In this document: piece after piece, positions 15,194 through 35,219 of the stretch
How positions within the stretch are numbered: the stretch's first letter is position 1
Layout of the letters: each line of letters starts with the position of its first letter
NCBI RefSeq assembly: GCF_900129325.1
Contig: NZ_FQUP01000002.1
Location: 636,668-700,667 of the forward strand
Source of the DNA: Kaistia soli DSM 19436
GTDB lineage: Bacteria > Pseudomonadota > Alphaproteobacteria > Rhizobiales > Kaistiaceae
Direction: 5' to 3'
Length of the DNA: 64,000 nucleotides
Program-made: the position numbers and the translations under genes
The notes under the pieces: model-generated
Database searches by the model: none
What the model was told of the DNA's origin: nothing
What the model saw: only the letters and a program-made list of their open reading frames with translations

Positions 15194-16042
15194 ATGCACG
15201 GCTTTGGAATTCACACCAGTCTTTGGGCGCATAGCTGGACGCGAGAGGCGGCGGAACTCGCCATTCCCGAGGCAGCCGAACGTGGCCTCGCCTTTGTCGA
15301 AATCGCGCTGCTGGAGCCCGGCAAGGTCGATACCGCCCATACACGCGCGCTGCTCGAGAAACACGAGCTCGGTGCTGTCTGCTCGCTCGGCCTGCCCGAC
15401 GATGCGCGGCCGACCAGCAACCCCGACAAGGCCTATGACTTCCTGAAGCTCGCGCTCGACAAGAGCGCGGAAATCGGCGCCAAGGCGCTGTCCGGCGTCA
15501 TCTATGGCTCGATCGGCGAGCGCACCGGCAAGCCGCCGACGGAAGCCGAATATGACGTGGTCGCCCGCGTGATGCAGAAGGTGGCCGCCCACGCCCGCAC
15601 GCTGGGCCTGGAACTCGGCATCGAGGCCGTCAACCGCTACGAAAACCACATGATCAACACCACCGAGCAGGCGGTCGGCCTGATCGAGCGGATCGGCGCG
15701 CCGAACGTCTTCCTGCATCTCGACACCTATCACATGAATATCGAGGCGAAGGGGCAGGCGAACGGCATCCTCGCCGCCGGCGAGCACCTGAAATATATCC
15801 ACCTTTCCGAGAGCGATCGCGGCGTGCCGGGCACCGGCACCATCGGCTGGGACGAGGTCTTCGCCGGACTGAAGGGCATCGGCTTCAAGGGCGGCATGGC
15901 GATGGAGAGCTTCGTCCATATGCCGCCCCAGCTTGCGGCGGCGCTCTCCGTCTGGCGCCCGGTCGCGGACAGCCGCGAGCAGATCCTCGCCGAGGGCCTG
16001 CCCTTCCTGCGCAACAAGGCGCGCCAGTACAAGCTGATCTAG
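15194..16042 (+). CDS. Sugar phosphate isomerase/epimerase, D-tagatose 3-epimerase-like
   Basis: TIM-barrel ketose epimerase family, 282 residues. The metal-binding residues of the DTE/psicose epimerase family are recognisable: Glu in LGIEAVNRYE, Asp and His in HLDTYHMNIE, His in IHLSESDRGVPGTGTIGWDE, and the final Glu in MAMESFVHMP. These coordinate the divalent metal and take the C3 proton. GGAGGA precedes the ATG at 15194. The gene stands alone, so its sugar substrate is not shown by context. The plus-strand unit ends before the tRNA gene. Confidence 0.85.
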   Translation: MHGFGIHTSLWAHSWTREAAELAIPEAAERGLAFVEIALLEPGKVDTAHTRALLEKHELGAVCSLGLPDDARPTSNPDKAYDFLKLALDKSAEIGAKALSGVIYGSIGERTGKPPTEAEYDVVARVMQKVAAHARTLGLELGIEAVNRYENHMINTTEQAVGLIERIGAPNVFLHLDTYHMNIEAKGQANGILAAGEHLKYIHLSESDRGVPGTGTIGWDEVFAGLKGIGFKGGMAMESFVHMPPQLAAALSVWRPVADSREQILAEGLPFLRNKARQYKLI

Positions 16043-16140
16043 CCGCGCAGCGGCGCCCACCCGCGCGTCCGGGCTGGGGCGGGCCAATGATGCGGCGCCG
16101 AAGCGAGGCGCCGCGTCGGTCGGTGTCTTTCGCCATTGAA

Positions 16141-16254
<114 letters not shown>

Positions 16255-16322
16255 CTTAAACCATTGGTGTCTCTGCACTTTTGGTTTTGACTGCCGCCTC
16301 GCAAACCTCAGAAAAGTCGATC

Positions 16323-16342
16323 TGTCACACTGGTGTCACACC
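16323..16342 (+). promoter_or_regulatory. Putative integrase arm sites, left end
   Basis: Two TGTCAC motifs (TGTCACAC) begin at 16323 and 16334, an 11-bp period, just upstream of the integrase start. A matching pair with the same orientation and period is found near the right end at 33780. One helical turn between copies suggests cooperative binding on one DNA face. Confidence 0.45.
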
Positions 16343-16359
16343 AAGGCGGACGACAAATC

Positions 16360-17406
16360 GTGGCAACGATCCGAAAACGAGGTTCATCGTGGCAGGCGCA
16401 AGTTCGCCGTGTCGGCTTCCCACTCCTGACCAAGTCGTTCTCGATGAAGTGCGATGCGCAAGCGTGGGCACGAGAACGGGAAATGGCGATTGACCGGGCC
16501 GGGCTCCCACAGACAGTTCGAGAACTGAAGGGCCGGACCGTTGGTGACCTTCTGAAGCGGTATGAAGAAACGATCACATCGACCAAGCGGGGCGCTGAGG
16601 TCGAGCGGTATCGTCTCAAGACAATGCAGAGGCACAATCTGTCGAAAGCCCGTCTTGCCCAACCACTCGCTTCTGCCGTTGCGGCATATCGGGATGACAG
16701 GTTGAAGGTAGTCAAGGGCGAGACGGTCCGAAGAGAACTGACGGTTCTCAGGCATTGTTTTGAAATCGCCATGAAGGAGTGGGGCGTCCCGCTTCCGAAC
16801 AATCCGGTCAAGCAGATCACTTTGCCCAAGCCATCGCAGGCCCGAGAGATTCGGTTATTCGAGGGTGACGAGGCCGTTCTTATCCACGAGTCAACGTCGC
16901 CCTCGGCACGATATCTGCTACCCCTGATGAAGCTCGCCATCGAGATGGGAATGCGTCGGGGCGAACTGCTTTCGCTACGATGGGATCATTTGGACCTTGA
17001 GCAAGGGCTCGCCTATCTGCCTATCACGAAGATTGGAAGCGCTCGGGCTGTGCCGCTTACACCGGTTGCAATTGCGCTCTTGGCGGGCGTGATGAGGGTG
17101 GAGGAAAGGGTCTTCCCCGTTTCTGCTGATGCTGTTCGGCACGCATGGGCGAGGCTCCGGAAACGTGCCGGCCTAGACGGGCTTCGGTTTCACGATCTGA
17201 GACATGAGGCTGTATCTCGGTTCTTTGAGATTGGGTTGAGCGCTCAAGAAGTTGCCTTGATAAGTGGGCACCGAGATATGCGTATGTTGGCACGCTATAC
17301 CCATCTTCGGCCGGCGAGTATTTCTGATAAGCTGGCTAATCTCTATTCGGCGGAGCCCAGCCATCCACGGTCAGAAAACGATGCGGAGTCCGAGGAGCCG
17401 AATTAG
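16360..17406 (+). CDS. int: Tyrosine recombinase (integrase) of the island
   Basis: Site-specific integrase/excisionase-type recombinase, 348 residues. The catalytic tetrad is visible in the C-terminal half: Arg in EMGMRRGELLSLRW, His-x-x-Arg in FHDLRHEAVSRFF, His in LISGHRDMRM, and the nucleophilic Tyr in LARYTHLRP. The N-terminal part (MATIRKRGSSWQAQVRR) is the short arm-binding domain typical of such integrases. I chose GTG 16360 because AAGGCGG at 16343-16349 is well spaced; an in-frame GTG at 16333 would overlap the TGTCAC repeats. It reads away from the tRNA 3' end, the usual arrangement. Confidence 0.93.
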   Translation: MATIRKRGSSWQAQVRRVGFPLLTKSFSMKCDAQAWAREREMAIDRAGLPQTVRELKGRTVGDLLKRYEETITSTKRGAEVERYRLKTMQRHNLSKARLAQPLASAVAAYRDDRLKVVKGETVRRELTVLRHCFEIAMKEWGVPLPNNPVKQITLPKPSQAREIRLFEGDEAVLIHESTSPSARYLLPLMKLAIEMGMRRGELLSLRWDHLDLEQGLAYLPITKIGSARAVPLTPVAIALLAGVMRVEERVFPVSADAVRHAWARLRKRAGLDGLRFHDLRHEAVSRFFEIGLSAQEVALISGHRDMRMLARYTHLRPASISDKLANLYSAEPSHPRSENDAESEEPN

Positions 17407-17941: not shown

Positions 17942-18175
17942 ATGGTCAAAGAGATGACCGACGACGCCGGATGCTGGATTTCAACGCCGAGTCCGGTGCT
18001 CGTGAAGCGATCGAACCGATCCGTACTAGGACGGAATAGGGAATTTCACCGAACACTAGAGAGAGCATCGGGCGGAGCAGAAGAACTTCGAGTGGGAATG
18101 GGCCCATCGCCTGTCGGACCATCGAACCTCACGCTCACACCGTCCATTGTTTCGAGAATCGTCGAACACTCTTGA
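17942..18175 (+). CDS. Doubtful small protein, 77 aa
   Basis: The ATG at 17942 is preceded by AGGGAG at a workable distance. The product is low in recognisable features. It runs convergently 40 bp into the 3' end of the helicase-primase gene. An alternative overlapping frame starts at 17842 (65 aa, ATGA overlap with the previous gene). One of the two may be real; neither has recognisable homology. Confidence 0.25.
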   Translation: MVKEMTDDAGCWISTPSPVLVKRSNRSVLGRNREFHRTLERASGGAEELRVGMGPSPVGPSNLTLTPSIVSRIVEHS

Positions 18176-20564
18176 CCGTGCCTTCAATGGAGGCTCTGCG
18201 ATCGTCTGGCGAATTTGCGGTTCCCGCCGCTGTCCGAAGCAGGGACTGCAGTTCGTCGTCATCGACGCCAGCCCTGACCAGCTTCAGCGCCAGCTTCAAG
18301 AATTGCTCGTTACCGCTGCCCGGCTTCCAGCCCTGTTGAGCCCATTGGGTCAACGCCTTTTCAATCATGACGTCGTTTCGAGGAAATGTTGGGTCGATGG
18401 TCGGAGATTCGACGAACGGGATGTCGTCGCCCGGCGTCGATCCGGCAAGGTGATCATCAAGGGCGGCCTGCAGCCATACCTGCACATCAATCGAGGTGCG
18501 TCCGGCATCGTTGAAATAACGGAAGTAATTTCCTGAAGAATCTGTCGCCAGACAGGGAAGCAGGAATAGATCCGTCGGCGCAAGTTTGTCTTCAACGTGC
18601 GCATCCTGAACGCTTTCGTGGATTCGTGTCGCCAATCTTTCAGCAATAAATTTATAAGATTCGGGAGGCATAATCGTCTTGGTGGGAAAATACAGATGCA
18701 GTCGCCACTTCCCATCAATATTACTCACACTGTTGAATATAGCGAATTTACAATCACGAAATATATCGGATAAATTGTCCGGCCCGCAGCTGATCCTATC
18801 AACGTCAATCCAGACCCCACTGACGAATTCGATATTTTGTCGACCACGTCTTTTCTGACCCGCCTTGAACGCATCATATATCGCTGGGGATATTGCCTCC
18901 ATTTTCTTCTTATTATCACTACGTGCTTGCACCAGCCCGTACTGCCTAAGTCTCTCAATAAATTGATCTTCGCTGCGCTCGATTAGCACAGCCTTCGGCG
19001 TGCTACATTTAACGTTATCGAATCGCATTCCGTAACTCAAAATTGCGACGTTATTATCATCTATATAGATAGTTTCGTCTCCAATTAGTTCCGACTGGGG
19101 CAGCAGTCTCTCTATCCGTTCTAAGAGCGCAGATCGATTATTGATCAGCGCTTCCGTTGCACTGATAGCATTACACAATTCAATTTTTCGTCTGCTATGT
19201 GATCTACGATCGTTGTCATTCTCGTGAATTCTCGGGCGGCCCGCTTTCTTCTTATGTCTGAGTCGTTCAGGAATCCAATCCAAGAAATCCAACGTCGATT
19301 CGGGAAACTTGGTCTGGAGCCATTCAGCCGTCGCTAAGTCCGGAAGATAGACGTGAACATGTTCAACGCTATTTTCCGAGCGAAGCGAGGATCGGGCGAT
19401 AGCCTGATAGGCCGCTTCCATATGGATCGCTGCGTCTATCTCGATCGCCGAAATGCCCATAGCCTCGAACCAAGACCGAACCGGATTCGACAACCGAAGG
19501 GCCGATAGGAAGACGACGCAATTATAGTCCTGAAACTCGTTCAACCCATGCGGAACGTTCGGCAAACGGAGACCATTCATCCCGTTAAATAGATTGTCCG
19601 GGTCACCTTTGTTAGCGACCCAGAGAAAATGCTGATCGCCAAGGCGGTTCCGGAGCTTCCCGACCATCAGGTCCATCAGCGTCTCGAACTCCGATCTTTT
19701 CAGAGCTGTGCCCTTTCCGGTCTTTGACCACCTGCCGTCATAGGCGTAGTGGATTGTCAAAAGACGACCGTTCTCATGGCTCCGATAATTTAGTTTGGCG
19801 GTATCCGCCGAATTTTCGACGAAGGCGACGCCTTGCCGGGACCAGAGCCGGAAGAGCATCGATTCCCTGAAGTTTGCTGCGGCAATGGTGACGCCGTCGA
19901 AGGGGTCGCAGATCGACGGTTGCAGTAGCGAGAAGATCAACAGCTTTTTCATAGTGCCGTTCCTGACGCCATCAAAATTCTCACCATGGAGGTAGGTCAG
20001 CCATCGGGTGGACTCGAGAACACTGGCGACGGCTTGGAACTGCGCCCAGACTTCGTCCTTTTCGCCGTTCCTAGCCATTTTCCTGAGCTCGGTTCCATCA
20101 CGGACAACAGCGAACGGGTATCCGGCAATGTCGCTCTGACCCGGCGTGATTAAGTCAGTCAGGATGCGGTGCGTCTCCGGCACTGTATGTTCAAAGCACT
20201 GAAAGGCGGTCGGCACTTCGTCGATCATCAGATGCCAGCCCATGAGCCGCCCGTGCCATTTCAGACGAAGGAAGGCCACGTGCGTGATGAAAAGAACGCC
20301 GCCGCCGTCAAAGCCGGACTTCAGACGTTCGATTATCTGTTTGGAGACTGATACTCCACGACGTTCGTCATCAGAATAAATCGCCTCGTATCTTGTATGT
20401 CGTTGGTTGGAGGCCAATTGCCTTTCAATAGTGCGATCGATTAGCTCTTTCGTTGGCTGAACAAATAGGACATTATCACCTGTATGGGCCAGCCATCGTG
20501 CCTTTTCCGTAAGCGCCCTCGTCTTGCCACTGCCGGCGGGTGCGTCAATATATATAAGTCTCAT
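18135..20564 (-). CDS. Helicase-primase-like fusion protein (SF2 ATPase + AEP-like primase + PriCT-like tail)
   Basis: 809-residue protein, numbered from ATG 20564 (a TTG start at 20630 would add 22). The N-terminal ATPase has Walker A APAGSGKT at 8-15, LMIDEVP (Walker B, Asp115-Glu116) and a motif-VI-like QAIARSSLR at 387-395, as in superfamily 2 helicases. A basic linker (KKKAGRPR) follows. Residues ~575-690 resemble archaeo-eukaryotic-type plasmid primases: WIDVDR at 585-590 supplies an Asp-x-Asp pair, then KWRLHLYFP and LFLLPCLAT. The tail (GSGNEQFLKLALKLVRAGVDDDELQ) resembles the PriCT domain that follows such primases. Probably the element's own replication protein. Low GC over much of the gene marks it as foreign. 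Confidence 0.65.
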   Translation of the reverse strand: MRLIYIDAPAGSGKTRALTEKARWLAHTGDNVLFVQPTKELIDRTIERQLASNQRHTRYEAIYSDDERRGVSVSKQIIERLKSGFDGGGVLFITHVAFLRLKWHGRLMGWHLMIDEVPTAFQCFEHTVPETHRILTDLITPGQSDIAGYPFAVVRDGTELRKMARNGEKDEVWAQFQAVASVLESTRWLTYLHGENFDGVRNGTMKKLLIFSLLQPSICDPFDGVTIAAANFRESMLFRLWSRQGVAFVENSADTAKLNYRSHENGRLLTIHYAYDGRWSKTGKGTALKRSEFETLMDLMVGKLRNRLGDQHFLWVANKGDPDNLFNGMNGLRLPNVPHGLNEFQDYNCVVFLSALRLSNPVRSWFEAMGISAIEIDAAIHMEAAYQAIARSSLRSENSVEHVHVYLPDLATAEWLQTKFPESTLDFLDWIPERLRHKKKAGRPRIHENDNDRRSHSRRKIELCNAISATEALINNRSALLERIERLLPQSELIGDETIYIDDNNVAILSYGMRFDNVKCSTPKAVLIERSEDQFIERLRQYGLVQARSDNKKKMEAISPAIYDAFKAGQKRRGRQNIEFVSGVWIDVDRISCGPDNLSDIFRDCKFAIFNSVSNIDGKWRLHLYFPTKTIMPPESYKFIAERLATRIHESVQDAHVEDKLAPTDLFLLPCLATDSSGNYFRYFNDAGRTSIDVQVWLQAALDDHLAGSTPGDDIPFVESPTIDPTFPRNDVMIEKALTQWAQQGWKPGSGNEQFLKLALKLVRAGVDDDELQSLLRTAAGTANSPDDRRASIEGTVKSVRRFSKQWTV

Positions 20565-20717
20565 GGATACGATTTTATGGATTTTCTGTTTGAGTGAAAT
20601 TCGTGGATTTGTTTGATTTATTGACAACAATATTGTCTATTCGGCCGCACAGATTTGATCTCGTGCGGCCGCTTATCAGGAAATCGGTATGCCCAGTTCT
20701 ATGGTCTGGTGCTCCCG

Positions 20718-22241: not shown

Positions 22242-25200
22242 GTGAGGCCTAACACTTTGACGACAAGTGATTTTTTCTCGGAGGACGCCCTGTTTGACAG
22301 GCTAACCTCCGGGGTACGCCGTAACCAGCGCCCGGTTACGTTTTTGGTTGGATCGGCCGTTAGCAGTCCGATTTCAGAGGGCACGCCGGGCGTGCCGAAT
22401 ACGGACGGCATAGTGGAACTAATTCGGCGGGAGTTCGATAGCGACGTCTTGGACGAGTTGAACCGGGAGATTGAGGCGTCTGAGCATCGATATCAAACGG
22501 CATTTCGATTTCTACAGGGCCGTAGAGGTCAGGCACATGTCAATGATATCGTTAAGAAGGCCGTATGGTCAGCACGAGCCGCTCCGATTGATAGCTCACA
22601 GGCCATTCAGTATGTCCCCACTTCCTCGACGGATGATGAGGTCTGCCTCGCCTACGAAGATGACATCTCATCGTGGTGGCTCTCTCCTTCGCATAAAGCC
22701 CTTGGGCAACTGCTATCGAAGGAGCCAAACCTATTCGGCGGCTCAATCTTAACCACGAATTTTGACCCCCTAATCGAAGTCGCAATTCGCTCTTTTGGCG
22801 GCGCATATTATAGAACGACGCTACATAGAGATGGAGACCTCAATCAGACGCACAGTGATGGTTGCCACGTGATCCATCTCCACGGTCACTGGTTCGGTAC
22901 CGACACCCTCCACACGCCCCGTCAGCTCAGCCAGTCGAGACCCCGCCTTGAGTCATCGCTCTACCACCTCATTAAGGGCCGCACGGTTGTGGTAGTTGGA
23001 TATGGCGGATGGGATGACGTTTTCACACAGGCACTGATGAACGTTGTTGTGGATGATCGGGCTTCGCCCGACGTGCTGTGGACGTTTCGAAGTGATGCCC
23101 CCGCCATGAACCCGAAATTGCAGGGCTTTCTTTTGCCGGGGCTCGATCGGGGGAACGTGACACTATATTCTGGTGTTGATTGCAATGCGTTCTTGCCGAG
23201 ACTCGCCAGCGGGTGGGGCTGCGAAGGACTGACTGCAAAACTCGATGAAAATGCTCATAGAGATTTGACGGAGAGGACCACTTCTTCAAGGCTCGCCCGA
23301 ACATCGACTGAAACGAAATTTGTTGAGCCGATTGATTTCACACGTGGCGAACAGGATCATCCCCCTAAGGTTGATTTTTACGTCGGTCGTAAATCAGATA
23401 TCGAAAAGATAATTGCCAGCGACTCCAAGATCGTTTACCTAACTGGCATCGGAGGACAGGGAAAGTCCGCCCTTGCAGCCGAGTACTTTAGCTTCGCAAT
23501 TAATTCATCTCGTTACGACCACTACGTCTGGCGAGACTGCAAAGAGGAAAGTGAACGATTTGAGCGTCAGCTCATATCGATTGTGACCGCATTAAGTCAC
23601 GACAGGGTCCACGCTCACGAACTAGCCACGCAGCCCATAGATACAATCTCTGATCTATTCATAGAGTTGATTGGATCGAAGCGCATACTTATTATATTTG
23701 ACAATATCGATCATTACATTGACTTGCAGGCCCGACGCCCAACTGGAAATATTATTCGATTCATTGATCGTTTGATTGGTTCCAATACAAATACGAGAAT
23801 AATATTTACCTGCCGGCCTGAGATTCTCCATAATCATATCCGTGTCCTTTCGCATCGGATGGGCGGTATCAGCCTGCAGGAGGCGGCGGAGCTGTTCCAC
23901 CTAAGGGGCGCCTCGACCGACTCCGCCTCGCTCTTCCGGGCTCATGAATTGACCCAAGGCCATGCTCTCTGGCTTGACCTGTTAGCCGCTCAGCTAGCTC
24001 GGCGAGGTCCAGAAATCGAATTAAACGATCTGCTCGATGAACTCCATGGAGATACACCACAGCTCCCTATTGCAACTCTTCGTTCAATCTGGGCCACACT
24101 TCGTGAACCAGAGCAGCTCGTTTTGCGCACCCTCGCTGAGACCGTGCGCCCGACAACGATACTGCAATTGTCGAATTATCTGAGCGAGAAGATACGGTAC
24201 AATAAGCTCGATAAGGCCCGCCGATCGCTGCGCAACGCCAACTTGCTGGTCGTCAAACCTCAAGGCGATGGGCAAGACGTCATGGAACTGCATCCGCTCG
24301 TTCGGACCTTTATCAGGACAAACTTTCCACCAGTCGAGCGGGAATGGTTTATTAAAATCATCCTTTCCGTATATGAAGCGTTTTTCGGATCTCACCGCTC
24401 TCATTTGAAGACAACGCCCAGACTTGAGACTTTGGATCATTGGACCGAGGGCGCCGAGCTTCATATAGCCGCCGGTCAGTTCGCAGACGCTATGGACTGT
24501 TTGCACGAAATTAGCCAACCGATCCAGAACAGTTCGTCACCGAATGAGTTCATTCGTGTAGCTCGACTACTTTTTGACCAGAAAGATTGGACACTGGTCG
24601 AAAGAGCAAAGCACTTTGATAGCGTGTTTTCACTATATGTCCGCCTTCAGGCTCTCGCTGGACATGTCGATGAGTGCTCGAATGCACTAGAACGCTATCG
24701 TGCAACTATTGAAGGCAAGGAGGTTCGCTATATAAATTTTTGCGATCTAAAGTGCTATACTCATTGGACAAATGGGGATGCGCTCGCTGCGGTCAAGTGG
24801 GGTGCGGAAGGAGTCTCATTAAAAGCTCAGTCCGACGCAGATACTGTTTTTGATGCTAGCCACAACCTTGCACTGGCTCAACGGGACTCGGGCGCCATCG
24901 ATTCGGCATTGGCCTATTTCCTTAAGGGTGCGTCTATTCGGGACGTGATCAGTGCCGGCGAGCCAGACAGTAACCAAAATGCACCATTTTATGGCAATAT
25001 CGGCAGGTGCCTCCAGCTGATGGGTCAGATTGAGTCGGCTCTTATCTGTTATCGCAAGTCAGCGAAAATGTTGAACGATCGGAGCCTTGGAGAGATCGCA
25101 GTCAATCAAGCATACATTCGCCAGTGGGTGGGTGAATTGCTTCTCGCAAACGGTGAAACGCAGCAGGGCTGCTTAATGCTCGAAGCCGCAAAGTCGAGAT

Positions 25201-25334
25201 GGGAATTCCTTTCTCCTCGGCACGTCCGAGCTATCCAAAGCCAGTTGTCGGCCGTCTCTAGAGGTCAGCATGCGAAGACGCCGACGTCAGAAGAGGCGGA
25301 ATCAGCCTTTCTTGCTTGGATTGTTGATTCCTAG
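22242..25334 (+). CDS. SIR2-STAND-TPR protein, Avs5-like antiviral NTPase
   Basis: 1030 residues. Residues ~30-290 form a SIR2-like NAD-binding domain: VGSAVS near 36, the catalytic-type TTNFD at 171-175 and HLHG at 212-215. A STAND (NB-ARC-like) NTPase follows, with Walker A GIGGQGKS at 402-409, Walker B RILIIFDNID at 481-490 and a TCRPE sensor-like strand. The C-terminus (from about 620) is helical repeats, TPR-like near 820-1000. The architecture matches SIR2-STAND defence proteins (AVAST type 5): the repeats sense a phage component, the NTPase oligomerises, and SIR2 depletes NAD, killing the infected cell. The start is GTG 22242, or possibly TTG 22257, which has better spacing to AAGTGAGG. 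Substrate and trigger are inferred. Confidence 0.85.
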   Translation: MRPNTLTTSDFFSEDALFDRLTSGVRRNQRPVTFLVGSAVSSPISEGTPGVPNTDGIVELIRREFDSDVLDELNREIEASEHRYQTAFRFLQGRRGQAHVNDIVKKAVWSARAAPIDSSQAIQYVPTSSTDDEVCLAYEDDISSWWLSPSHKALGQLLSKEPNLFGGSILTTNFDPLIEVAIRSFGGAYYRTTLHRDGDLNQTHSDGCHVIHLHGHWFGTDTLHTPRQLSQSRPRLESSLYHLIKGRTVVVVGYGGWDDVFTQALMNVVVDDRASPDVLWTFRSDAPAMNPKLQGFLLPGLDRGNVTLYSGVDCNAFLPRLASGWGCEGLTAKLDENAHRDLTERTTSSRLARTSTETKFVEPIDFTRGEQDHPPKVDFYVGRKSDIEKIIASDSKIVYLTGIGGQGKSALAAEYFSFAINSSRYDHYVWRDCKEESERFERQLISIVTALSHDRVHAHELATQPIDTISDLFIELIGSKRILIIFDNIDHYIDLQARRPTGNIIRFIDRLIGSNTNTRIIFTCRPEILHNHIRVLSHRMGGISLQEAAELFHLRGASTDSASLFRAHELTQGHALWLDLLAAQLARRGPEIELNDLLDELHGDTPQLPIATLRSIWATLREPEQLVLRTLAETVRPTTILQLSNYLSEKIRYNKLDKARRSLRNANLLVVKPQGDGQDVMELHPLVRTFIRTNFPPVEREWFIKIILSVYEAFFGSHRSHLKTTPRLETLDHWTEGAELHIAAGQFADAMDCLHEISQPIQNSSSPNEFIRVARLLFDQKDWTLVERAKHFDSVFSLYVRLQALAGHVDECSNALERYRATIEGKEVRYINFCDLKCYTHWTNGDALAAVKWGAEGVSLKAQSDADTVFDASHNLALAQRDSGAIDSALAYFLKGASIRDVISAGEPDSNQNAPFYGNIGRCLQLMGQIESALICYRKSAKMLNDRSLGEIAVNQAYIRQWVGELLLANGETQQGCLMLEAAKSRWEFLSPRHVRAIQSQLSAVSRGQHAKTPTSEEAESAFLAWIVDS

Positions 25335-25403: not shown

Positions 25404-25976
25404 TCACCTCGATGCCGCTTGATCCCTCGCTGCAGGCAAGTAGCGATAGAGTGTTGGCTGAGACACGCCGAGCCGCTCGGCAACCTCTTTCACCGTGATG
25501 GAGGGATCAGCCAGCAGAGCCTTTGCTGCCGCCAGATCGCCGTCTGACAGAGCACGGGGCCGCCCGCCGACCTTGCCGGCTTCCTTGGCCGCCTTGAGGC
25601 CCGCCATGGTGCGCTCTCGGATAAGCGACCTCTCCCATTCGGCAAGCGCTCCGAAGACGTGAAAGATGAGCCTTCCGCCCGGCGTGCTGGTATCGATGTT
25701 TTCCGTTATCGATCGAAACTCGATCCCCCGCTCGCCGAGCGCCTCGACAGTATCGATGAGTTGACGCAGCGAGCGTCCAAGCCGATCGAGCTTCCAGACG
25801 ACCAGCACGTCGCCCTTGCGTAGGAATTCAAGCGCCTTGCCGAGCTGCGGACGATCTCGCTGTGCGCCGGACGCTGTCTCGACAAACACCCTCTCAACGC
25901 CATCCCGCTGCAGAGCCTGCTCCTGCAGACCAAGAGACTGGTCCGTCGTCGAGACACGTGCATATCCCACCTTCAT
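25404..25976 (-). CDS. Serine recombinase, resolvase/invertase family
   Basis: 190 residues. The catalytic domain starts MKVGYARVSTTDQSLGLQ with the nucleophile Ser9, followed by VWKLDRLGRSLRQLID and the long E helix near LIRERTMAGLKAA. A C-terminal helix-turn-helix (ITVKEVAERLGVSQPTLYRYLP) binds the site. It resembles Tn3-family resolvases, but no transposase is nearby. It is therefore an orphan, either the remnant of a transposon inserted in the island or a resolvase serving the element. It separates the SIR2-STAND gene from the DUF2971 and type I R-M genes. Confidence 0.92.
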   Translation of the reverse strand: MKVGYARVSTTDQSLGLQEQALQRDGVERVFVETASGAQRDRPQLGKALEFLRKGDVLVVWKLDRLGRSLRQLIDTVEALGERGIEFRSITENIDTSTPGGRLIFHVFGALAEWERSLIRERTMAGLKAAKEAGKVGGRPRALSDGDLAAAKALLADPSITVKEVAERLGVSQPTLYRYLPAARDQAASR

Positions 25977-26222
25977 GCCGTCTCCCTCTCAAAACTCGTC
26001 GACATGGACATTATGAGAATGGCTATTTCGAGAGACTGTTTCAAGAACTGGCTTTGATTAATGCATGCAGTTTTGACCGGTCACGGCGGGCCCTCTCAAT
26101 TACCTTCGTTTTCGAGATGGCGAGTAACTGGACAACTCGGGGCAATACGGCAAGGTCGTCAGCATGCATGCTCACCTCTAGGGCGGCCGGCACGCCAAAA
26201 CAAACGTAACGAGGCCACTATT

Positions 26223-27188
26223 TTGGACAAGACGGATCATCCAGACGAGATATTCCACTACACGAGCATCGGCGGGCTACTCGGCATAATTCAGTCTAAA
26301 TGCCTTCATGCTTCTCATATTGAGTTCATGAATGATCGAATGGAAATGCGTTATGCGGATGATCTTATACGTCCGCTTCTGGTTCCGGCATTTAGGGAGT
26401 GCTTTTCGCATCTGCAACGTCAGGTAGTTATGACCGGCGGTTTTGACATGGACTGGCTATGTGAACATGAGGCAAGCAATTTACTTGCTGCTATCAGGCG
26501 AACGTCGAATAGGTTGGCACCTCTCTTCGTCGTGTCTTTCTGTCGAGCTACATCAGCCGAGATAGCAAGCGACGGCCTGCTGAGTCAGTGGAGAGGATAC
26601 GGAGTAGATGGAGGAGTTGCGATCGTATTCGATCAACGGGGGATAAGTACGTTGATTGAGTCAGAGAGAGCCAAATTCCAACTGGCTACGATCTCTTTCG
26701 GTGATGTCATCTACGGGCCTAACGATCCAGAATTTGAAAGCATAATCCCGAACCTCGAATTATATAAAAGCGCAGCGGCAACAATAATAGAAATGACTAT
26801 GAACACAACGGCTGCCAAGAATCTTCTAGAGCATTTCCCAAAAGTTCCGCTTGAAGAATTGTTTCAACCATACTCATCGGTTCAGCCTATGCTCAAGCAC
26901 CCGTCATTCAGAGAAGAGAATGAATACAGATTGACATTATCTGTGGGAAAGAACGGCTTTGTCGAGTCCGATTCTCTCGCTGAGAAAGGCGTGAAATTCA
27001 AACAGAGAGGCAACTACCTGATTCCCTACATCGAATTGCATTCGAATGATGGGCCCGCTCTCCCGATACTGAGGGTTATCGTCGGGCCGTCCGTGGAGGG
27101 GGAGCGGCGGAGAGACAGTGTTGAAATGCTGCTTCGAGAGCATGGGCATTCAATTCCTGTGTCGCTATCAAAAATCCCACTCACTTAG
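26223..27188 (+). CDS. DUF2971-family protein
   Basis: About 321 residues, starting at TTG 26223 ([15 protein letters not shown]) with TAACGAGG 8 nt upstream; the frame is open back to ATG 26061, but that stretch is unlike protein. The family hallmarks are visible: [32 protein letters not shown] near the start, and VVSFCRATS with LLSQWRGYG in the middle. DUF2971 proteins are found often near restriction and other defence genes; their activity is not established. Low GC indicates foreign origin. It is followed after 139 bp by hsdM. Confidence 0.75.
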
Positions 27189-27327
27189 TGTGAGCAAGAG
27201 CGGCAACAGTGGCGGTATGTGGTCACAAGTCCACACTGCTCGACGACGCCACTTCCCCCGCCTTGCCATCACCGGTTGCCTTCTGGCCATATGGCCTGAA
27301 TCAAGAGCGATCGGGAGCCTCGCCACC

Positions 27328-29163
27328 GTGTATCATCAGACGCTTTCGTCCTTCATCTGGTCCGTCGCCGACCTGCTTCGGGGCGACTACAAGCAGTCGG
27401 AATATGGCAAGGTCATTCTGCCGTTTACGGTTCTCCGTCGCCTCGACTGCGTGCTGGAATCGACCAAGGCGGCCGTGCTCGCCGAGTTCGAGGCGAAGAC
27501 CAAGGCCGGGCTCAATCCGGAGCCGTTCATGCTCCGGGTCGCCGGGCAGAGCTTCTACAACACGTCGCCGATGGATATGCGCCGCCTCATGGGCGATCAG
27601 GACCATATTAGGGAAAACCTGTTCGCCTACATCCAAGCCTTCTCGCCAGCTGTCCGGGACATCTTCGAGCGTTTCGAGTTCTATGCCCAGATCGAGCGGC
27701 TGGCGAAGGCCAAGCTCCTCTATCAGGTGACGGAGAAGTTCGCCGGCATCGATCTGCACCCGGAGAAGGTCGACAACAGCCAGATGGGACTGGCCTTCGA
27801 GGAGCTGATCCGGAAGTTCGCCGAAATCTCGAACGAGACAGCGGGCGAGCACTTCACCCCCCGTGAGGTCATCCGGCTGATGGTCAACCTGCTGTTTGTC
27901 GAGGATGACGACATCCTGACCAAGCCGGGCATCGTTCGAACGATCTATGATCCGACGGCAGGAACCGGCGGCATGCTGTCGGTCGCTGGCGAGCATCTGG
28001 AGGCGCTCAATCCGAATGCCCGCCTGACCATGTTCGGGCAGGAGTTGAACGACGAATCCTATGCGATCTGCAAGGCTGACATGCTTATCAAGGGGCAGGA
28101 CGTCGGCAACATCATTGTGGGCAACACGCTCTCCGATGATGGCCATGCCCATCGCAAGTTCGATTACATGCTTTCCAATCCGCCCTTCGGCGTCGAATGG
28201 AAGAAGGTCGAGAAGGAAGTCCGGAAAGAGCACGTGAGCCAAGGCTTCAATGGGCGCTTTGGGCCGGGCCTCCCACGTGTCTCGGACGGCTCGCTCCTTT
28301 TCCTGATGCATCTCATATCGAAGATGCGCCCGGCGTCCGAAGGCGGCTGCCGTTTCGGCATCGTCCTCAACGGATCACCCCTGTTCACGGGCGGCGCCGG
28401 CAGCGGCGAAAGCGAAATCCGCCGCTATGTGCTGGAGAACGACCTTGTCGAGGCGATCATCGGCCTGCCAACCGACATGTTCTACAATACCGGCATCGCC
28501 ACCTATGTCTGGATCGTGTCGAACCGGAAGCCGCAGCACCGCAAAAGCCACGTCCAGTTGATCGACGCCTCTTCGATGTGTCGGAAGATGCGCAAGAGCC
28601 TTGGGTCCAAGCGCCGGGAACTGGCCGAGGATCATATAGCGACGATCACGAAGCTGTTCGGTCAGTTCGCCGAGGCGAGGCTTGCCACGGTGATGGATGG
28701 CGAAGGCAAGGAGATCGGCCAGTCCGTCTTGCTCGATGACGGGACACCGCCCGTAGCCCCGGATGGGGGCAAGGTAAAGCTGGCGCCACTGTCTCGCATC
28801 TTCCCGAACGAGTTCTTCGGCTATCGAACGATCACCGTGGAACGTCCGCTCCGGGACGACAAGGGCAGGCTCGTTCTCGGGGGGAGGGGCAAGCATAAAG
28901 GCAAGCCGCAGGCGGATTCATCGCTGCGAGATACGGAAAACGTGCCGCTGTCGGAGGCGATCGAGACCTACTTCAACCGGGAAGTTCTGCCGCATGCGCC
29001 GGATGCGTGGATCGACCCTGACAAGACCAAGGTCGGCTATGAAATTCCGTTCAATCGGCACTTCTATGTGTTCGAGCCGCCCCGCTCCCTCGACGAAATC
29101 GATGCCGATCTGAAGCTCGTCACCGACCGCATAAAGGCCATGATCGAAGGGCTGGCGGCATGA
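27328..29163 (+). CDS. hsdM: Type I restriction-modification DNA methyltransferase subunit HsdM
   Basis: N6-adenine methyltransferase subunit, 611 residues. The GTG start at 27328 ([19 protein letters not shown]) has GGGAG about 10 nt upstream. The N-terminal HsdM helical domain is followed by SAM motif [12 protein letters not shown], and catalytic motif IV, NPPF, in [12 protein letters not shown]. An HsdM2S complex methylates, and with HsdR it restricts. The stop overlaps the hsdS start (ATGA), and hsdS overlaps hsdR, so all three are one operon. Confidence 0.95.
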
Positions 29164-30512
29164 GCTTACCGAAATACGAGAGCTACAAGGACTCGGGCGT
29201 CGAATGGCTGGGCGAAGTGCCGTCACATTGGTCCACCGCCGGTCTCCGCTGGCTCGCAGTGAGATATAGCGGAGGCACTCCGGACAAGGGCAACCCTTCC
29301 TACTGGTCGGACGGGGACATCCCTTGGCTCAATTCCGGATCAGTGAACCAGCCTCTTATATCAAAGCCATCCGCCTACATAACGGAGGAGGCGTTTTCCA
29401 ACAGCAGCGCCAAATGGATTCCTGAGGGAGCCCTGTTGATGGCTCTGGCCGGCCAAGGCAAGACCAAAGCAACGGTTGCTCAGCTTGGATTTCGTTCGAC
29501 ATGTAATCAGTCAATGGCAGCAATCGTTCCGGGAAACAAGATAACGGCGAGATTTCTATATTGGTGGCTTACGTCAAATTACGAGAATATCCGCAACCTC
29601 TCCGGCGGCGATTTACGTGATGGCCTCAATTTAGAGCTTCTCGGATCAATCCCTTGTCCAATTACGGAGATTCGTGAGCAAACCGCCATCGTCGCCTTCC
29701 TCGACCGGGAAACGGCCAAAATAGATGCGCTGGTAGAGGAACAGAAGCGGCTGATCGAACTGCTGAAAGAAAAGCGGCAAGCCGTGATTTCCCATGCCGT
29801 TACCAAGGGCCTCGATCCGAATGCGATGATGAAAGAATCGGGCGTCGAATGGCTGGGTGAGGTGCCGGCGCATTGGAATGTTAGAAGCTTCCTGAGCGCC
29901 TTCGATGTTGTCTATCGTTATCCTACCTACTTCGACATACAGTATGAAGATGCTGGTATCATTGAAATACGAGGAGAGGCCATCGGATCAAATGGTGAAA
30001 TAATTACACTTAATGATCAAAGATACATCTCCAAAGAGACTAGCGATCGATTTCCAATGACTCAAATGGAAGAGGGAGATCTCGTTATGTCCGTCCGTGG
30101 AACACTTGGAAAAGTCGCAAAGATCACAAAGAGTTATATTGGATCTAATATAACTGCAAATTTATTACGACTATCTCCAAATAGGATTCTTTTTGACAGT
30201 GATTTTGTCCGATACACTGTCAATAGCTTGGAATTTACAGAACAGCTTTCGATGTTTAGCTCTCAAACAACTATAAGAACTGTCACAATACCGCAACTGA
30301 ATCAGATTCGAATTGCTTGTCCTCCGCTAGAGGAACAAGCCGCTATAGCAGAAAAACTAGGCCGAAGAATCGCTAAGCTCGACGCACTCTCGGTAGAAGC
30401 CCAGACGCTCGTACAATTCCTCCGTCAACGCCGCTCAGCCCTGATTTCGTCGGCAGTGACGGGCAAAATCGACGTGCGAGGCATGTCTACGATCGAAGTG
30501 GAAGCGGTATGA
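29160..30512 (+). CDS. hsdS: Type I restriction specificity subunit HsdS
   Basis: 450 residues with two target-recognition domains, each opened by the repeated motif [10 protein letters not shown](S/A)HW (near residues 12 and 229) and followed by helical spacers containing the [16 protein letters not shown] and [16 protein letters not shown] coiled coils. The two domains each read one half of a bipartite target. The second recognition domain (about 29,880-30,360) is clearly AT-richer than the first and than hsdM/hsdR, which suggests separate replacement of that half. Start and stop overlap hsdM and hsdR. Confidence 0.94.
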
Positions 30513-33500
30513 CTCTGCATAAGGAAATCAGCTTCGAAGACGAGATTTGCAGTTATCTCGCCGATCGTGGCTGGCTCCATACGCCCGGTGACGCCGTGCT
30601 CTATCACCGTGCCCATGCGCTCTTCCCGCCCGACCTAAAGGCGTGGATCGAAGCAACCCAGCCCAAGGCATGGGAGACGCTAACCAAGAACCACGGCGCT
30701 GCTGCTGAGGCCGTCTTGCTCGACCGTATCCGCAAGCAGTTGGACGATCGAGGCACGCTCGACGTCCTTAGGCACGGGGTCGAGATGATCGGTCTTCGTC
30801 ATCCTCTTGCGCTGGCCCAGTTCAAACCGGCCATGGCGATGAATCCCGAGATCGTCGCTCGCTATCAGGCCAACCGGCTGCGGATCATCCGGCAGATTCG
30901 CTATTCGGGCGCCAACGAGAATTGCATCGATCTGGTGCTTTTCCTGAACGGCCTTCCCGTGGCGACCGCCGAACTCAAGACGGACTTCACCCAGAGCGTC
31001 ACGGACGCCATAGATCAGTATCGCTTTGATCGGCACCCGAAGCCCAAGGGACAGGCTCCAGAGCCGCTGTTAAGCTTCCCAAGCGGCGCATTGGTGCATT
31101 TCGCCGTCAGCAATACCGAAGTGAACATGGCGACCGAGTTGCTGGGTCCGGCGACCCGGTTTCTGCCTTTCAACAAGGGCGACGACGGCGGCAGGGGCAA
31201 TCCCCTGAACCCGGATGGGCACCGCACCGCCTATCTTTGGGAAGAGGTCTGGGAGCGGGAAAGCTGGCTCGAAATTCTCGGCCGTTATCTCGTCACGCAG
31301 CGCAACGAAAAGAAGCAAATCAAGAGCGTCGTTTTCCCCCGCTATCATCAGCTCGACGCTACAAGGAAGTTGCAGGCTGCCATTCTGGAGGAAGGCGCTG
31401 GCGGCAAATTTCTCATTCAGCATTCGGCAGGATCGGGCAAGACGAACTCGATCGCATGGTCGGCCCATTTCCTCGCCGACCTGCACGACGCCGACCATCG
31501 GAAGCTGTTTTCGACCGTGATCGTCGTCTCCGATCGGAACGTCATCGATTCCCAGCTTCAGGAAGCGCTGTTCGATTTTCAGCGCACGACCGGCGTCGTC
31601 GCCACGATCAAGAGCGAAGGCGAGAGCAAGAGCGGCAAGCTTGCCGAGGCCCTGTCGCAGGGCAAGAAAATCATCGTCTGCACGATCCAGACGTTTCCCT
31701 TCGCCTTGGCAGCCGTTCGGGAATTGGCAGCGACGAAGGGCAAGACCTTCGCCGTGATCGCTGATGAGGCGCATTCTTCGCAGACTGGCGAGGCGGCATC
31801 GAAACTGAAGCAGGTTCTTTCCCCCGAGGAACTGGCCGACCTCAGCGACGGCGGGGAAATCAGCGCCGAAGACATTCTGGCCGCTCAGATGTCCGCTCGG
31901 GCGAGCGACACGGGCATCACCTTCGTTGCCTTTACGGCCACCCCGAAGGCGAAAACATTGCAGCTTTTTGGGCGCCGGCCGAACCCAGCTGAACCGGCGG
32001 GGCCGAACAACCTCCCCGCCCCGTTTCACGTCTATTCGATGCGACAGGCGATCGAGGAGGGCTTCATCCTCGACGCCTTGAAGAATTACACGCCCTATCA
32101 GCTCGCCTTCCGCCTCGCCCATGGCGGCAAAGAGATCGACGACCGGGAGGTCGAGCGGGACGCCGCCCTCAAGAGCATCATGAAATGGGTCCGGCTGCAC
32201 CCCTACAACATCAGCCAGAAGGTCGAGATCGTCGTCGAACATTTCCGGGCCAATGTCGCAGGCCTGCTGGATGGCAAAGCCAAGGCCATGGTCGTCTTGG
32301 GAAGCCGGGTCGAGGCCGTCCGCTGGCAGCTCGCCATCGACAAGTACATCAAGTCCAAGGGCTACCAGATCGGCACCATGGTCGCCTTTTCGGGCGAGGT
32401 CGAAGACAAGGACAGCGGACCCGACCCGTTCAAGGAAACCGGCCGGGAACTCAATCCGGGCTTACGGGGCCGGGATATTCGGGAGGCCTTCAAGGGGGAT
32501 GAGTATCAGCTTCTTCTCGTCGCCAATAAATTCCAAACCGGTTTCGATCAGCCGTTGCTCTGCGGCATGTATGTCGATCGCCGCCTTGCCGGCATTCAGG
32601 CTGTGCAGACTTTCTCCCGCCTGAACCGAGCCCATCCGGGCAAAGACACGACCTACGTCCTCGACTTCGTCAACAGCTCTGACGAGATTCTTGCAGCGTT
32701 CCGAACCTACTACGACACGGCCGAACTCGAGTCCGTCTCCGATCCGAACATCATCTTTAACCTCAGGGCCAAGCTCGACGCCTCAGGCCATTATGACGAG
32801 TTCGAGGTCGATCGAGCGGCGAAGGTCGAGTTGGACCCGAAGTCGAAGCAGAGCGACTTGATTGCGGCTATCGAGCCGGTCGCCGATCGACTGCTGAAGA
32901 GGTTCAAGCAGGCACAGGATCGCCTGAAAGCGGCGATATCCATTGGCGACAGCAGGGGGCAGTCAGCCTCTCAAGACGAGATTAACGCCCTGATCTTGTT
33001 CAAGGGCGATATCGGCGCATTCGTGCGGCTCTACACGTTCCTGTCGCAGATTTTCGACTACGGCAACACGGCAATCGAGAAGCGCTTCATCTTCTACAAG
33101 CGACTGATTCCGCTGCTGGAATTTGGCCGGGAGCGGGAAGGCGTTGATGTCTCGCAACTGACCCTGACCCATCATGTTCTCCGATCCAAAGGCACCCTGC
33201 CCTTGCCGCTGGGAGAAGGTGACACGCCGAAGCTCGCCCCTGTCAACGAAGCAGGTTCCGGCGCCGTTCAGGAGAAGGAAAAGGCGCTCCTGAACGAGAT
33301 CATCGCCAAGGTCAACGACCTGTTCGGAAGCGACACGACGGATGGCGATCAGCTCGTCTATGTGAACAACGTCCTGAAGGGGAAGCTGCTGGAATCCGAG
33401 GAACTCGTGCTGCAGGCCTCGAACAACAGCAAGGCCCAGTTCGCCAATTCGCCGACGCTGGCCAGCGAGATCATGAACGCCATCATCGACGCCCTCGCCG

Positions 33501-33622
33501 CCAATCAGAGCCTCAGCAAACAGGCTTTGGATTCAGCGAAGGTGCGAGAGGGACTGAAGGATATTCTGCTCGGACCGGGGCGCCTGTATGAAGCGCTGCG
33601 AGCGCAAAGTGGCGCTGACTAA
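30509..33622 (+). CDS. hsdR: Type I restriction endonuclease subunit HsdR
   Basis: 1037 residues. The N-terminal PD-(D/E)xK nuclease is seen as NCIDLVLFLNGLPVATAELKTDF (Asp ... Glu-x-Lys). The motor domain has Walker A SAGSGKTNS, DEAH-type IADEAHSSQTG, FTATPK and motif VI QTFSRLNRAHPGKD. The HsdR C-terminal helical region that docks on HsdM/HsdS fills the remainder. Complete and apparently intact. It is the last gene before the right repeat. Confidence 0.95.
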   Translation: MTLHKEISFEDEICSYLADRGWLHTPGDAVLYHRAHALFPPDLKAWIEATQPKAWETLTKNHGAAAEAVLLDRIRKQLDDRGTLDVLRHGVEMIGLRHPLALAQFKPAMAMNPEIVARYQANRLRIIRQIRYSGANENCIDLVLFLNGLPVATAELKTDFTQSVTDAIDQYRFDRHPKPKGQAPEPLLSFPSGALVHFAVSNTEVNMATELLGPATRFLPFNKGDDGGRGNPLNPDGHRTAYLWEEVWERESWLEILGRYLVTQRNEKKQIKSVVFPRYHQLDATRKLQAAILEEGAGGKFLIQHSAGSGKTNSIAWSAHFLADLHDADHRKLFSTVIVVSDRNVIDSQLQEALFDFQRTTGVVATIKSEGESKSGKLAEALSQGKKIIVCTIQTFPFALAAVRELAATKGKTFAVIADEAHSSQTGEAASKLKQVLSPEELADLSDGGEISAEDILAAQMSARASDTGITFVAFTATPKAKTLQLFGRRPNPAEPAGPNNLPAPFHVYSMRQAIEEGFILDALKNYTPYQLAFRLAHGGKEIDDREVERDAALKSIMKWVRLHPYNISQKVEIVVEHFRANVAGLLDGKAKAMVVLGSRVEAVRWQLAIDKYIKSKGYQIGTMVAFSGEVEDKDSGPDPFKETGRELNPGLRGRDIREAFKGDEYQLLLVANKFQTGFDQPLLCGMYVDRRLAGIQAVQTFSRLNRAHPGKDTTYVLDFVNSSDEILAAFRTYYDTAELESVSDPNIIFNLRAKLDASGHYDEFEVDRAAKVELDPKSKQSDLIAAIEPVADRLLKRFKQAQDRLKAAISIGDSRGQSASQDEINALILFKGDIGAFVRLYTFLSQIFDYGNTAIEKRFIFYKRLIPLLEFGREREGVDVSQLTLTHHVLRSKGTLPLPLGEGDTPKLAPVNEAGSGAVQEKEKALLNEIIAKVNDLFGSDTTDGDQLVYVNNVLKGKLLESEELVLQASNNSKAQFANSPTLASEIMNAIIDALAANQSLSKQALDSAKVREGLKDILLGPGRLYEALRAQSGAD

Positions 33623-33902: not shown

Positions 33903-34016
<114 letters not shown>

Positions 34017-34526
34017 ACACCTCAAGTCGCAATGCATGCCGCGTCGCCTGGGCGGCGAGCCGAAACGGCATTCGGATTCAGCAAGCAAATCATGCAATCG
34101 CCTTCGCCGATGCATCCGCCGCGCAAGGCGACCTGATTGTCTGGGCCGGCGGTGCGTGGTCAGTCGAGGGCGCGGACGGGCATTGTGAGATGCAGAACCG
34201 CTCGCACCTCAACCGTCGTGTCTTTGATTGGCTCGACGAACAGTTGGCCGAAGACGCTCAGTCCGCGGTGGCTCTCCGATATGTCAGTTGGGGCGGAGGT
34301 GGCCAGCCCCGTCTCGAGGACGCTTCGGGGAACCTCTCGGGCTCACCTCAGTTTTGGGACTTGGAGGGTGTCTTACCTACTACATCCGCCAGGCGATCTA
34401 CTGAGCGCGAAACCCGGCCGCAGCAATATCTAGCCGAACGACCGGTTCGAGTGGGAGCGGCGATCGCCCCTGTCGACGGCGCAACTCGTCCGTATGTGGT
34501 TACACGCCGCTCGGCCAGGTACTCTG
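34017..34526. other. 510-bp stretch without a supported gene
   Basis: Two overlapping short plus-strand frames (34137-34433 and 34190-34540) exist, but neither has a good start, family motif or codon pattern. Probably decayed DNA at the island edge. Confidence 0.4.
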
Positions 34527-35144
34527 CTATGCGATGTTGAACCTCGCGACGAGCATGTCGGTAAGCGGGTCAGCTTGTCGGATGAGTTCGGCTCCTCCGG
34601 TTCCCTCATCCGTCGTCCGTTCCGCGAAGCTGGTGGTCAGCAGCACAACGAACCGAACGTCGAAGTCGAGGTTGCCGGAATGGCCGTTCCCTACAGCCTC
34701 GGCGATAAAGCGTTTCGTCAGGTCGGCACCCGCCGCCAGAAGCGCCCGGAACTCTTCCGTCTCCTTTAGGTCCACCGATGCAGCCCTCAGCGCGCGGCGA
34801 AGATCGACTTCGGCGGCCTCGATCAGAAAAAACTCGCGGACGAAGTCGCGTAGCTTCACGGCGTGATCTTCGCCGGGGCGGGTGAGGATTGGCGACAACC
34901 TCGCCAGCTGTCTTTCCCACGTCTGCCTCACGATGTGGAAGAGCAGCGCCTCCTTGTTGGGAAAGTACTGGTAGAAGGAGGCGATGTTCACGCCCGCTTT
35001 CTCAGCCACCTTGTTGGCGGTGAAGCCGCCGAGTCCTTCGCGGGCCAGAATGTAAGTAGCGGCCTCCGCGAGTGCCTCGACCGTGGCAACGGCGCGCCGC
35101 TGCCGCGGTAGCTTTTTCGGGGCGAGATCGATCTTGCGGGGCAT
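34527..35144 (-). CDS. TetR-family transcriptional regulator
   Basis: 205 residues. The N-terminal helix-turn-helix is typical: AVATVEALAEAATYILAREGLGGFTANKVAEKAGVNIASFYQYFPNKEALLFHIV near residues 18-70. The C-terminal ligand domain is not assignable. It is divergent from the PobA-like hydroxylase with a 75-bp AT-rich gap, so it very likely represses that gene and itself. Ligand unknown. Confidence 0.9.
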   Translation of the reverse strand: MPRKIDLAPKKLPRQRRAVATVEALAEAATYILAREGLGGFTANKVAEKAGVNIASFYQYFPNKEALLFHIVRQTWERQLARLSPILTRPGEDHAVKLRDFVREFFLIEAAEVDLRRALRAASVDLKETEEFRALLAAGADLTKRFIAEAVGNGHSGNLDFDVRFVVLLTTSFAERTTDEGTGGAELIRQADPLTDMLVARFNIA

Positions 35145-35219
35145 GATGGCGCGTCCGATCGAATGTGATTAGCGGATATCATCAAATACTTATATTTTTA
35201 TCGCCGATACATCGACGAG

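Follow-up and report, generated by a model that had tools for sequence, protein, structure and literature searches.

Most of what is known about SIR2-STAND immunity comes from Avs5, and the locus described here raises the question whether a protein of the same general build is a further Avs5 or belongs to a second lineage. The gene lies in a stretch of 64,000 nucleotides of Kaistia soli DSM 19436 (contig NZ_FQUP01000002.1, positions 636,668 to 700,667), called the window in the following, with positions counted from its first base. An uninterrupted open reading frame (ORF) on the forward strand, 22242-25334, encodes 1030 amino acids, and an initial annotation made from the letters had taken the product for a SIR2-STAND-TPR antiviral protein of the Avs5 kind on a mobile element. 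Our analysis suggests that the protein works like Avs5 but seems to form a separate, rarely seen lineage. A second lineage on an NB-ARC ATPase, nearer by sequence to PH0952 and to plant NLRs, would mean that evolution assembled this solution more than once.

The three-part build of the protein is well supported: a SIR2_2 domain at the N-terminus is followed by a STAND ATPase of the NB-ARC type, and a TPR-like superhelix forms the C-terminus. Judged, as all Pfam matches here, against the cut-off of each model, SIR2_2 (PF13289) reaches 48.7 bits (cut-off 24.5) over residues 168-286 and NB-ARC reaches 29.5 bits (cut-off 23.5) over residues 390-496. The TTNFD motif with N173 and D175, Walker A (402-409) and Walker B (484-490) were found where the initial annotation had placed them. 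The NB-ARC motif set is complete, with the sensor TCRP at 523-526, GHALW at 573-577 and LHPLV at 683-687, and it is kept in the four other unsplit members of the family. In a motif scan of eight sequences just one, the Pantoea ananatis plasmid protein L010, was without one pattern (GHA). LHPLV occupies what we take to be the place of the NLR MHD motif and is called MHD-like here. The order is thus that of a bacterial NLR-type protein: first the effector, then a STAND ATPase in which Walker A, Walker B, the sensor motif and an MHD-like motif are all present, and last a repeat sensor. We infer a winged helix in the ATPase region as well; residues 601-703, where it is expected, have a predicted local distance difference test (pLDDT) score below 50.

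The claimed TPR-like C-terminus agrees with the structure model, in which an all-helical superhelix extends from about residue 685 to 1029, with pLDDT mostly 70-89 from residue 731. VIA-align rows cover about residues 700-1012 at Z 15-18 and include TSK/BRU1, APPBP2, MalT domain III and Rap/AimR proteins. Since helical repeats easily give high Z in VIA-align, we call this part TPR-like and no more. The length of the protein, described earlier as compact, is ordinary for the family, as the four unsplit relatives have 1015-1034 residues. GTG 22242 is the first possible start of the ORF. The alternative TTG 22257 has a GAGG nine bases upstream and agrees with the N-termini of the homologues, and from the sequence we regard the two starts as equally plausible.

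Is the protein then an Avs5? Avs5 is described as SIR2 plus nSTAND3 plus repeats (PMC12931631), and the window protein has the same order of SIR2_2, central STAND ATPase and C-terminal helical repeats. When the full-length model was searched with Foldseek, the EfAvs5 SIR2-STAND structure 9jap ranked first (E 3.5e-10, alignment spanning 1042 columns) and the AVAST5 filament 9nc9 third. One could imagine a distant clade, as the three tested Avs5 homologues, each of its own clade, share just 18-21% identity (PMC12931631). The nSTAND3 (PF20720) match of the window protein, 24.7 bits, lies just below its cut-off of 27.2. However, nSTAND3 is under its cut-off in all five family members examined (matching at E<=0.01 in three, the window's match being the best), while NB-ARC exceeds its own in the window protein, L002 and L008 and matches at E<=0.01 in all five. 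For this reason we say that the protein works like Avs5 and not that it is Avs5; membership in a further clade of true Avs5 (AVAST type 5) is unlikely, and the earlier label was given up, with EfAvs5 still the best fold match.

A five-member profile of the family against the PDB sequences gave PH0952 (6e-12) and the plant NLRs Roq1 (1e-4) and NRC2 (3e-4), and no Avs5 chain in 53 rows to E=10, from a sequence set not confirmed to contain the Avs5 chains. PH0952 (6mfv), a STAND-TPR sensor, resembles the window protein in its ATPase sequence and, by name, in its TPRs, but the match begins at residue 5 of the chain and leaves no room for a preceding SIR2 domain. PaAvs5-1 has GAGxS and NG (PMC12931631), whereas the window protein has HG and has lost GAGxS. 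The 50 listed VIA-align entries for the full model held no Avs5 chain, which excludes nothing. PADLOC and NCBIfam gave no Avs name, a silence that means little and was not counted because PADLOC likewise gave no DSR2 name to L059, a full-length DSR2 relative. The NCBIfam entries tried as an Avs5 reference turned out to be Dsr1 and Avs3b and were set aside. A search for nSTAND3 in 274 genomes matched 106, mostly weakly; in 8 of 30 loci, inspected by eye, no SIR2 motif was seen in the first 260 residues, some frames being cut by the locus end.

The family is rare. Its full-length relatives number five, in one of which the protein is divided between two ORFs, and the named hosts are Alphaproteobacteria and Acidobacteriota. 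Matches occur in 1 of 61 genomes among relatives (E<=1e-10), in 2 of 385 in the class and in 3 of 398 in the phylum (both E<=1e-20); the three samples overlap partly and each counts the window genome. The other match in the class sample, L004, covers SIR2 only; those in the phylum sample are the full-length L005 and, over the NB-ARC-TPR part only, L006/L007. From five IMG/VR scans came a single full-length relative, on a contig listed as both L046 and L049, and two relatives in the SIR2 part only, L047 and L048; two scans, one of them with L010 as query, gave none. In L046 an integrase lies 2.3 kb before the gene, and a terminase large subunit, an HNH endonuclease, a major head protein, a head maturation protease and a portal protein follow it. 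For each of these phage genes the PHROGs match has an E value of 6e-27 or lower, and by its gene content the locus is phage DNA. A tblastn search of 50,697 deposited phage records found no homologue. A further candidate, L003, was dropped, its match being 88 residues inside an ORF that by eye resembles a transporter permease. No description of a SIR2 - NB-ARC - TPR family was seen in the literature searched, which comprised papers outside subscription.

The model of the SIR2 part (residues 1-330) is better than that of the whole protein, with pLDDT 75 and a predicted template modelling score (pTM) of 0.80, and the SIR2 fold expected there was found. All 50 Foldseek matches listed for it are SIR2 NADase proteins (SPARSA, ThsA, KomC, DSR2, SIR2-HerA), at E 6e-10 to 5e-7. 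N173, D175, H214 and G215 are identical in 13 of 13 aligned SIR2 domains, and together with K408 they are unchanged in the window protein and its four unsplit relatives. Of the residues named earlier for mutation, Asn173 and Lys408 were chosen correctly and His212 was not: the sirtuin HG histidine is H214, and residue 212 is a tyrosine in L002. A SIR2 profile against the PDB sequences ranked human FAM118B first (3e-11), followed by SPARSA SIR2-APAZ (1.5e-6), KomC (1e-5), the SIR2 of SIR2/HerA (1e-4), SeThsA (0.004), DSR2 (0.07) and ThsA (0.09). FAM118B is thus the nearest solved SIR2 by sequence profile, yet it is not among the 50 listed Foldseek rows, and we keep this link as a lead; it could bear on the origin of the human enzyme. 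As the profile and fold matches include SPARSA, ThsA, KomC, DSR2 and SIR2/HerA, knowledge of those families makes NADase the likely activity of the domain.

The best fold match of the domain is the SPARSA SIR2-APAZ protein (Foldseek E 6e-10; VIA-align Z 20.0, root-mean-square deviation 2.9, 205 residues aligned), and the SPARSA models of PADLOC match only residues 142-304, within the SIR2 part. In contrast to SPARSA, no APAZ or Argonaute was matched by Pfam in the 10 island proteins scanned, and the window protein has an ATPase and TPRs instead. DSR2 is similar in the fold of its SIR2 domain and in its one-gene plan with a C-terminal helical region, but DSR2 chains were absent from the phmmer matches to E=1. 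L059 is a relative of DSR2 (E 0 to its chains) in which Pfam finds SIR2_2 alone; the SIR2 profile reaches E 5.2 with it, and the NB-ARC-TPR profile does not list it.

As a kind, a SIR2 effector on a STAND-repeat protein is already known, because SIR2 in place of TIR on such proteins has been reported for P4 hotspots, and TIR or Sir2 for NACHT proteins. TIR, SIR2 or a nuclease is an exchangeable N-terminal effector on STAND plus repeats in P4 hotspots (PMC9122126), and NACHT proteins often bear a TIR or Sir2 effector (PMC10952713, a review). The NLR-like SIR2- or TIR-STAND-repeat proteins of the hotspots have the same general plan as the window protein, a likeness drawn from the description in PMC9122126. 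The P2-type locus L047 and the phage locus L048 have the SIR2 subfamily of the window protein and not its NB-ARC-TPR part.

What is new, as we read the sequences, is the modularity of the SIR2 and NB-ARC-TPR parts. Two profiles, one for each part, were built from five full-length members (window, L002, L046, L008, L005). The SIR2 profile matched L004, L011, L012, L013a, L014, L047 and L048 at E 1e-65 to 4e-37 and left L010 and L006 unmatched, also with filters off. The NB-ARC-TPR profile matched L010 (2e-119), L006 (2e-94) and L007 (3e-56), and from the SIR2-profile group it listed only L012, at E 7.5. Since the two profiles match different sets of relatives, sensor and effector have by this evidence been recombined in both directions. 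L010 and the genome G750, of which L006 and L007 are two contig ends, have an NB-ARC-TPR part homologous to that of the window, but their SIR2 loops read GAGIS (L010) and GAGLS (L006), and the SIR2 of L010 is of the KomC/ThsA kind. Five proteins (L012, L013b, L014, L047, L048) have a further C-terminal part in common, with all 10 pairs matching, in which Pfam finds no ATPase family. The SIR2 subfamily of the window protein, most of whose members are without the GAGxS loop, is found with at least two further kinds of C-terminal part.

We tentatively propose, as a possibility somewhat short of an even chance, that an undescribed NB-ARC-TPR sensor module has had its SIR2 effector replaced as a cassette and bears either a GAGxS-type SIR2 (KomC/ThsA-like in the one typed) or a divergent SIR2 lacking GAGxS, and that the divergent SIR2 is also joined to no fewer than two further C-terminal parts, of which one occurs in P2-like phages. 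In that case the divergent subfamily would serve as an exchangeable NADase that binds NAD (nicotinamide adenine dinucleotide) in a manner of its own, with human FAM118B as its nearest solved relative by sequence. Natural effector swaps, with one sensor and different SIR2 domains, allow a test of sensor and effector as independent modules.

Several further observations were made on these loci. In L004 (1-2427, reverse strand) the same SIR2 subfamily is fused to nSTAND_NTPase5 (123.9 bits). The L047 gene (5959-9087) has a P2-type replication nickase on one side and portal/terminase genes on the other, and the L048 gene (3223-6291) lies beside a phage tail gene; both combine the same SIR2 subfamily with the other C-terminal part. 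On the Klebsiella plasmid L013 (3989-7023), a gap of 56 bases separates the ORF of the SIR2 part from that of the C-terminal part, which form one gene in L047; the first ORF stops right behind a run of A. On a Pantoea plasmid (L060, 2935-4286) a SIR2 gene comes after a purine NTP pyrophosphatase gene, an arrangement reminiscent of the Kongming (HAM1-SIR2) defence. Pantoea accounts for 95 of the 108 records in the search behind L060, the one record of this type that was examined.

Overall, our data argue with good confidence for a single-gene immune receptor of the bacterial NLR type, in which phage sensing would lead to NAD depletion by SIR2 and to abortive infection. At rest, the NB-ARC ATPase, bound to adenosine diphosphate (ADP), would keep SIR2 silent. 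Some component of the phage, most likely one of its conserved proteins, would bind the C-terminal TPR-like superhelix; the ATPase would then swap its nucleotide and multimerise, and the clustered SIR2 domains would hydrolyse NAD+, both as expected from the families named above. The infection would abort, with the cell stalling or dying ahead of phage release. The gene itself travels on a tRNA-Arg integrative island, whose cargo also includes a type I restriction operon. The architecture, the conserved catalytic and ATPase residues, the mobile setting, the phage-borne relative and the effector exchange are observed parts of this model. We consider the NAD-depletion hypothesis and the mobile setting well supported, and the role in NAD depletion and abortive infection proposed at the outset draws its support from knowledge of the related families.

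Some of our results weigh against this reading. The full-length model is weak (pLDDT 59, pTM 0.39), and the Avs5 rows of its Foldseek search have TM-scores of 0.15-0.20 (EfAvs5 0.16 and 0.19). TPR models of Pfam match below their cut-offs, the best being TPR_12 with 26.9 bits against 30.1 (residues 871-944). Moreover, catalysis by the SIR2 domain is not certain, because the first NAD-binding loop reads GSAVS where GAGxS is usual. GAG is missing, with its second glycine lost, in 12 of the 13 aligned domains, all six family members included, and the sole exception is L011 (GAGGS). The altered loop, which is a testable question on SIR2 chemistry, varies within the family (GSAVS, GSALT, GAPLT, GSPLS) and would also suit a SIR2 domain whose product is a signal nucleotide, or which modifies some target, and which does not deplete the NAD pool, the protein still being a phage sensor. 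The rank of FAM118B ahead of SPARSA and KomC points the same way, as FAM118 proteins are described in PMC12700824 as noncanonical and as processing NAD. However, N173, D175 and H214 are invariant in all 13 domains and the fold matches are NADase proteins, so that we give this explanation only a small chance.

The setting of the copies would also suit another role, in which the protein would mainly shield its island from rival mobile elements, for example plasmids and other islands, and not from virulent phages. Four of the six copies are on the window island, on plasmids (L008, L009) or on phage DNA (L046), and SPARSA, the fold relative of the SIR2 domain, acts on plasmids. Against this stand the absence of a partner gene for DNA sensing among the neighbours and the TIR-STAND-TPR protein of a P4 hotspot, which has the same general plan and is counted as anti-phage in PMC9122126. 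We rate a guarding role as improbable, no less so than the signalling one, and prefer the phage-sensing receptor that depletes NAD.

The mobile element claimed earlier was borne out, since an island of 17.8 kb with low guanine-cytosine (GC) content is bounded by perfect 114-bp direct repeats and carries an integrase (Table 1). In 1-kb blocks its GC is 48-60%, compared with 62-68% outside, the first block (16000-16999) being mixed. In each repeat a whole tRNA-Arg(ccg) is preceded by 37 bases that also belong to the repeat, and the island appears to carry a complete tRNA copy, not just the 3' end. The 831-residue helicase/PriCT_1 protein is possibly the replication protein of the island. Going by this protein, and with no phage structural gene in the island proteins scanned, the island may replicate like a phage satellite.

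Table 1. Features of the island in the window and full-length relatives of the SIR2 - NB-ARC - TPR protein.
Feature	Position	Strand	Description	Basis
SIR2 - NB-ARC - TPR protein	22242..25334	+	1030 aa, or 1025 aa with TTG 22257 start	ORF, Pfam, five full-length relatives
SIR2_2 NADase-like domain	22242..23231	+	residues 1-330; N173, D175, H214; first loop GSAVS not GAGxS	Pfam, 13-domain alignment, model, Foldseek
NB-ARC STAND ATPase and winged-helix region (inferred)	23412..24299	+	about residues 391-686	Pfam, motifs, PDB profile matches
TPR-like helical sensor	24339..25280	+	about residues 700-1013	model, VIA-align, TPR_12 below cut-off
Left 114-bp direct repeat	16141..16254	+	tRNA-Arg(ccg) 16178-16254 inside	
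Tyrosine integrase of island	16333..17406	+		Phage_integrase E 3.8e-25
Helicase and PriCT_1 (primase-like) protein	18135..20630	-	831 aa	ResIII 24.4 bits, over cut-off; PriCT_1 20.4 bits, just below 21.1
Serine resolvase	25404..25976	-		Resolvase E 3.4e-46
DUF2971 protein	26061..27188	+		E 7.7e-10
Type I restriction-modification operon	27118..33622	+	HsdM 27118-29163, HsdS 29160-30512, HsdR 30509-33622	Pfam, PADLOC
Right 114-bp direct repeat	33903..34016	+	second tRNA-Arg(ccg) 33940-34016 inside	
L002			Sphingobium; full-length relative, 44%	
L008			Granulicella plasmid (Acidobacteriota); full-length relative, 41-43%	
L005			same order as window genome; full-length relative, 37-38%	
L046			IMG/VR contig, phage DNA; full-length relative, 37-38% identical	
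L009			Rhizobium phaseoli plasmid; two overlapping ORFs (split), 37%	

The flanks were compared with 13 other genomes of the genus. The left flank (about 1 kb) is kept at 83-87% in three of them (G005, G007, G013), and over 40 kb on the tRNA side of each these match the window only in the left flank and the tRNA repeat, counting matches of >=60 bases at E<=1e-10. In G004, where 17 kb was compared, the left flank is matched at 73% and the match stops short of the tRNA. The right flank beyond the tRNA was not found in the 13 genomes but for short pieces, so that a clean empty site was not shown. At 34017-35200, on the right side of the second tRNA, only short scattered matches were found, so that another variable region may start in this sequence.

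In G007 (L054, 18796-19001) the left flank breaks off after the first 42 bases of the same tRNA. An entire copy of the tRNA (90%) lies some 125 bases further along, an arrangement that looks like the scar of another integration at this site. Between the resolvase and the restriction operon of the window, the DUF2971 ORF runs past position 27118, where the long HsdM frame opens. In that frame the HsdM_N domain is first reached at residue 76, so that the true HsdM start probably lies further in.

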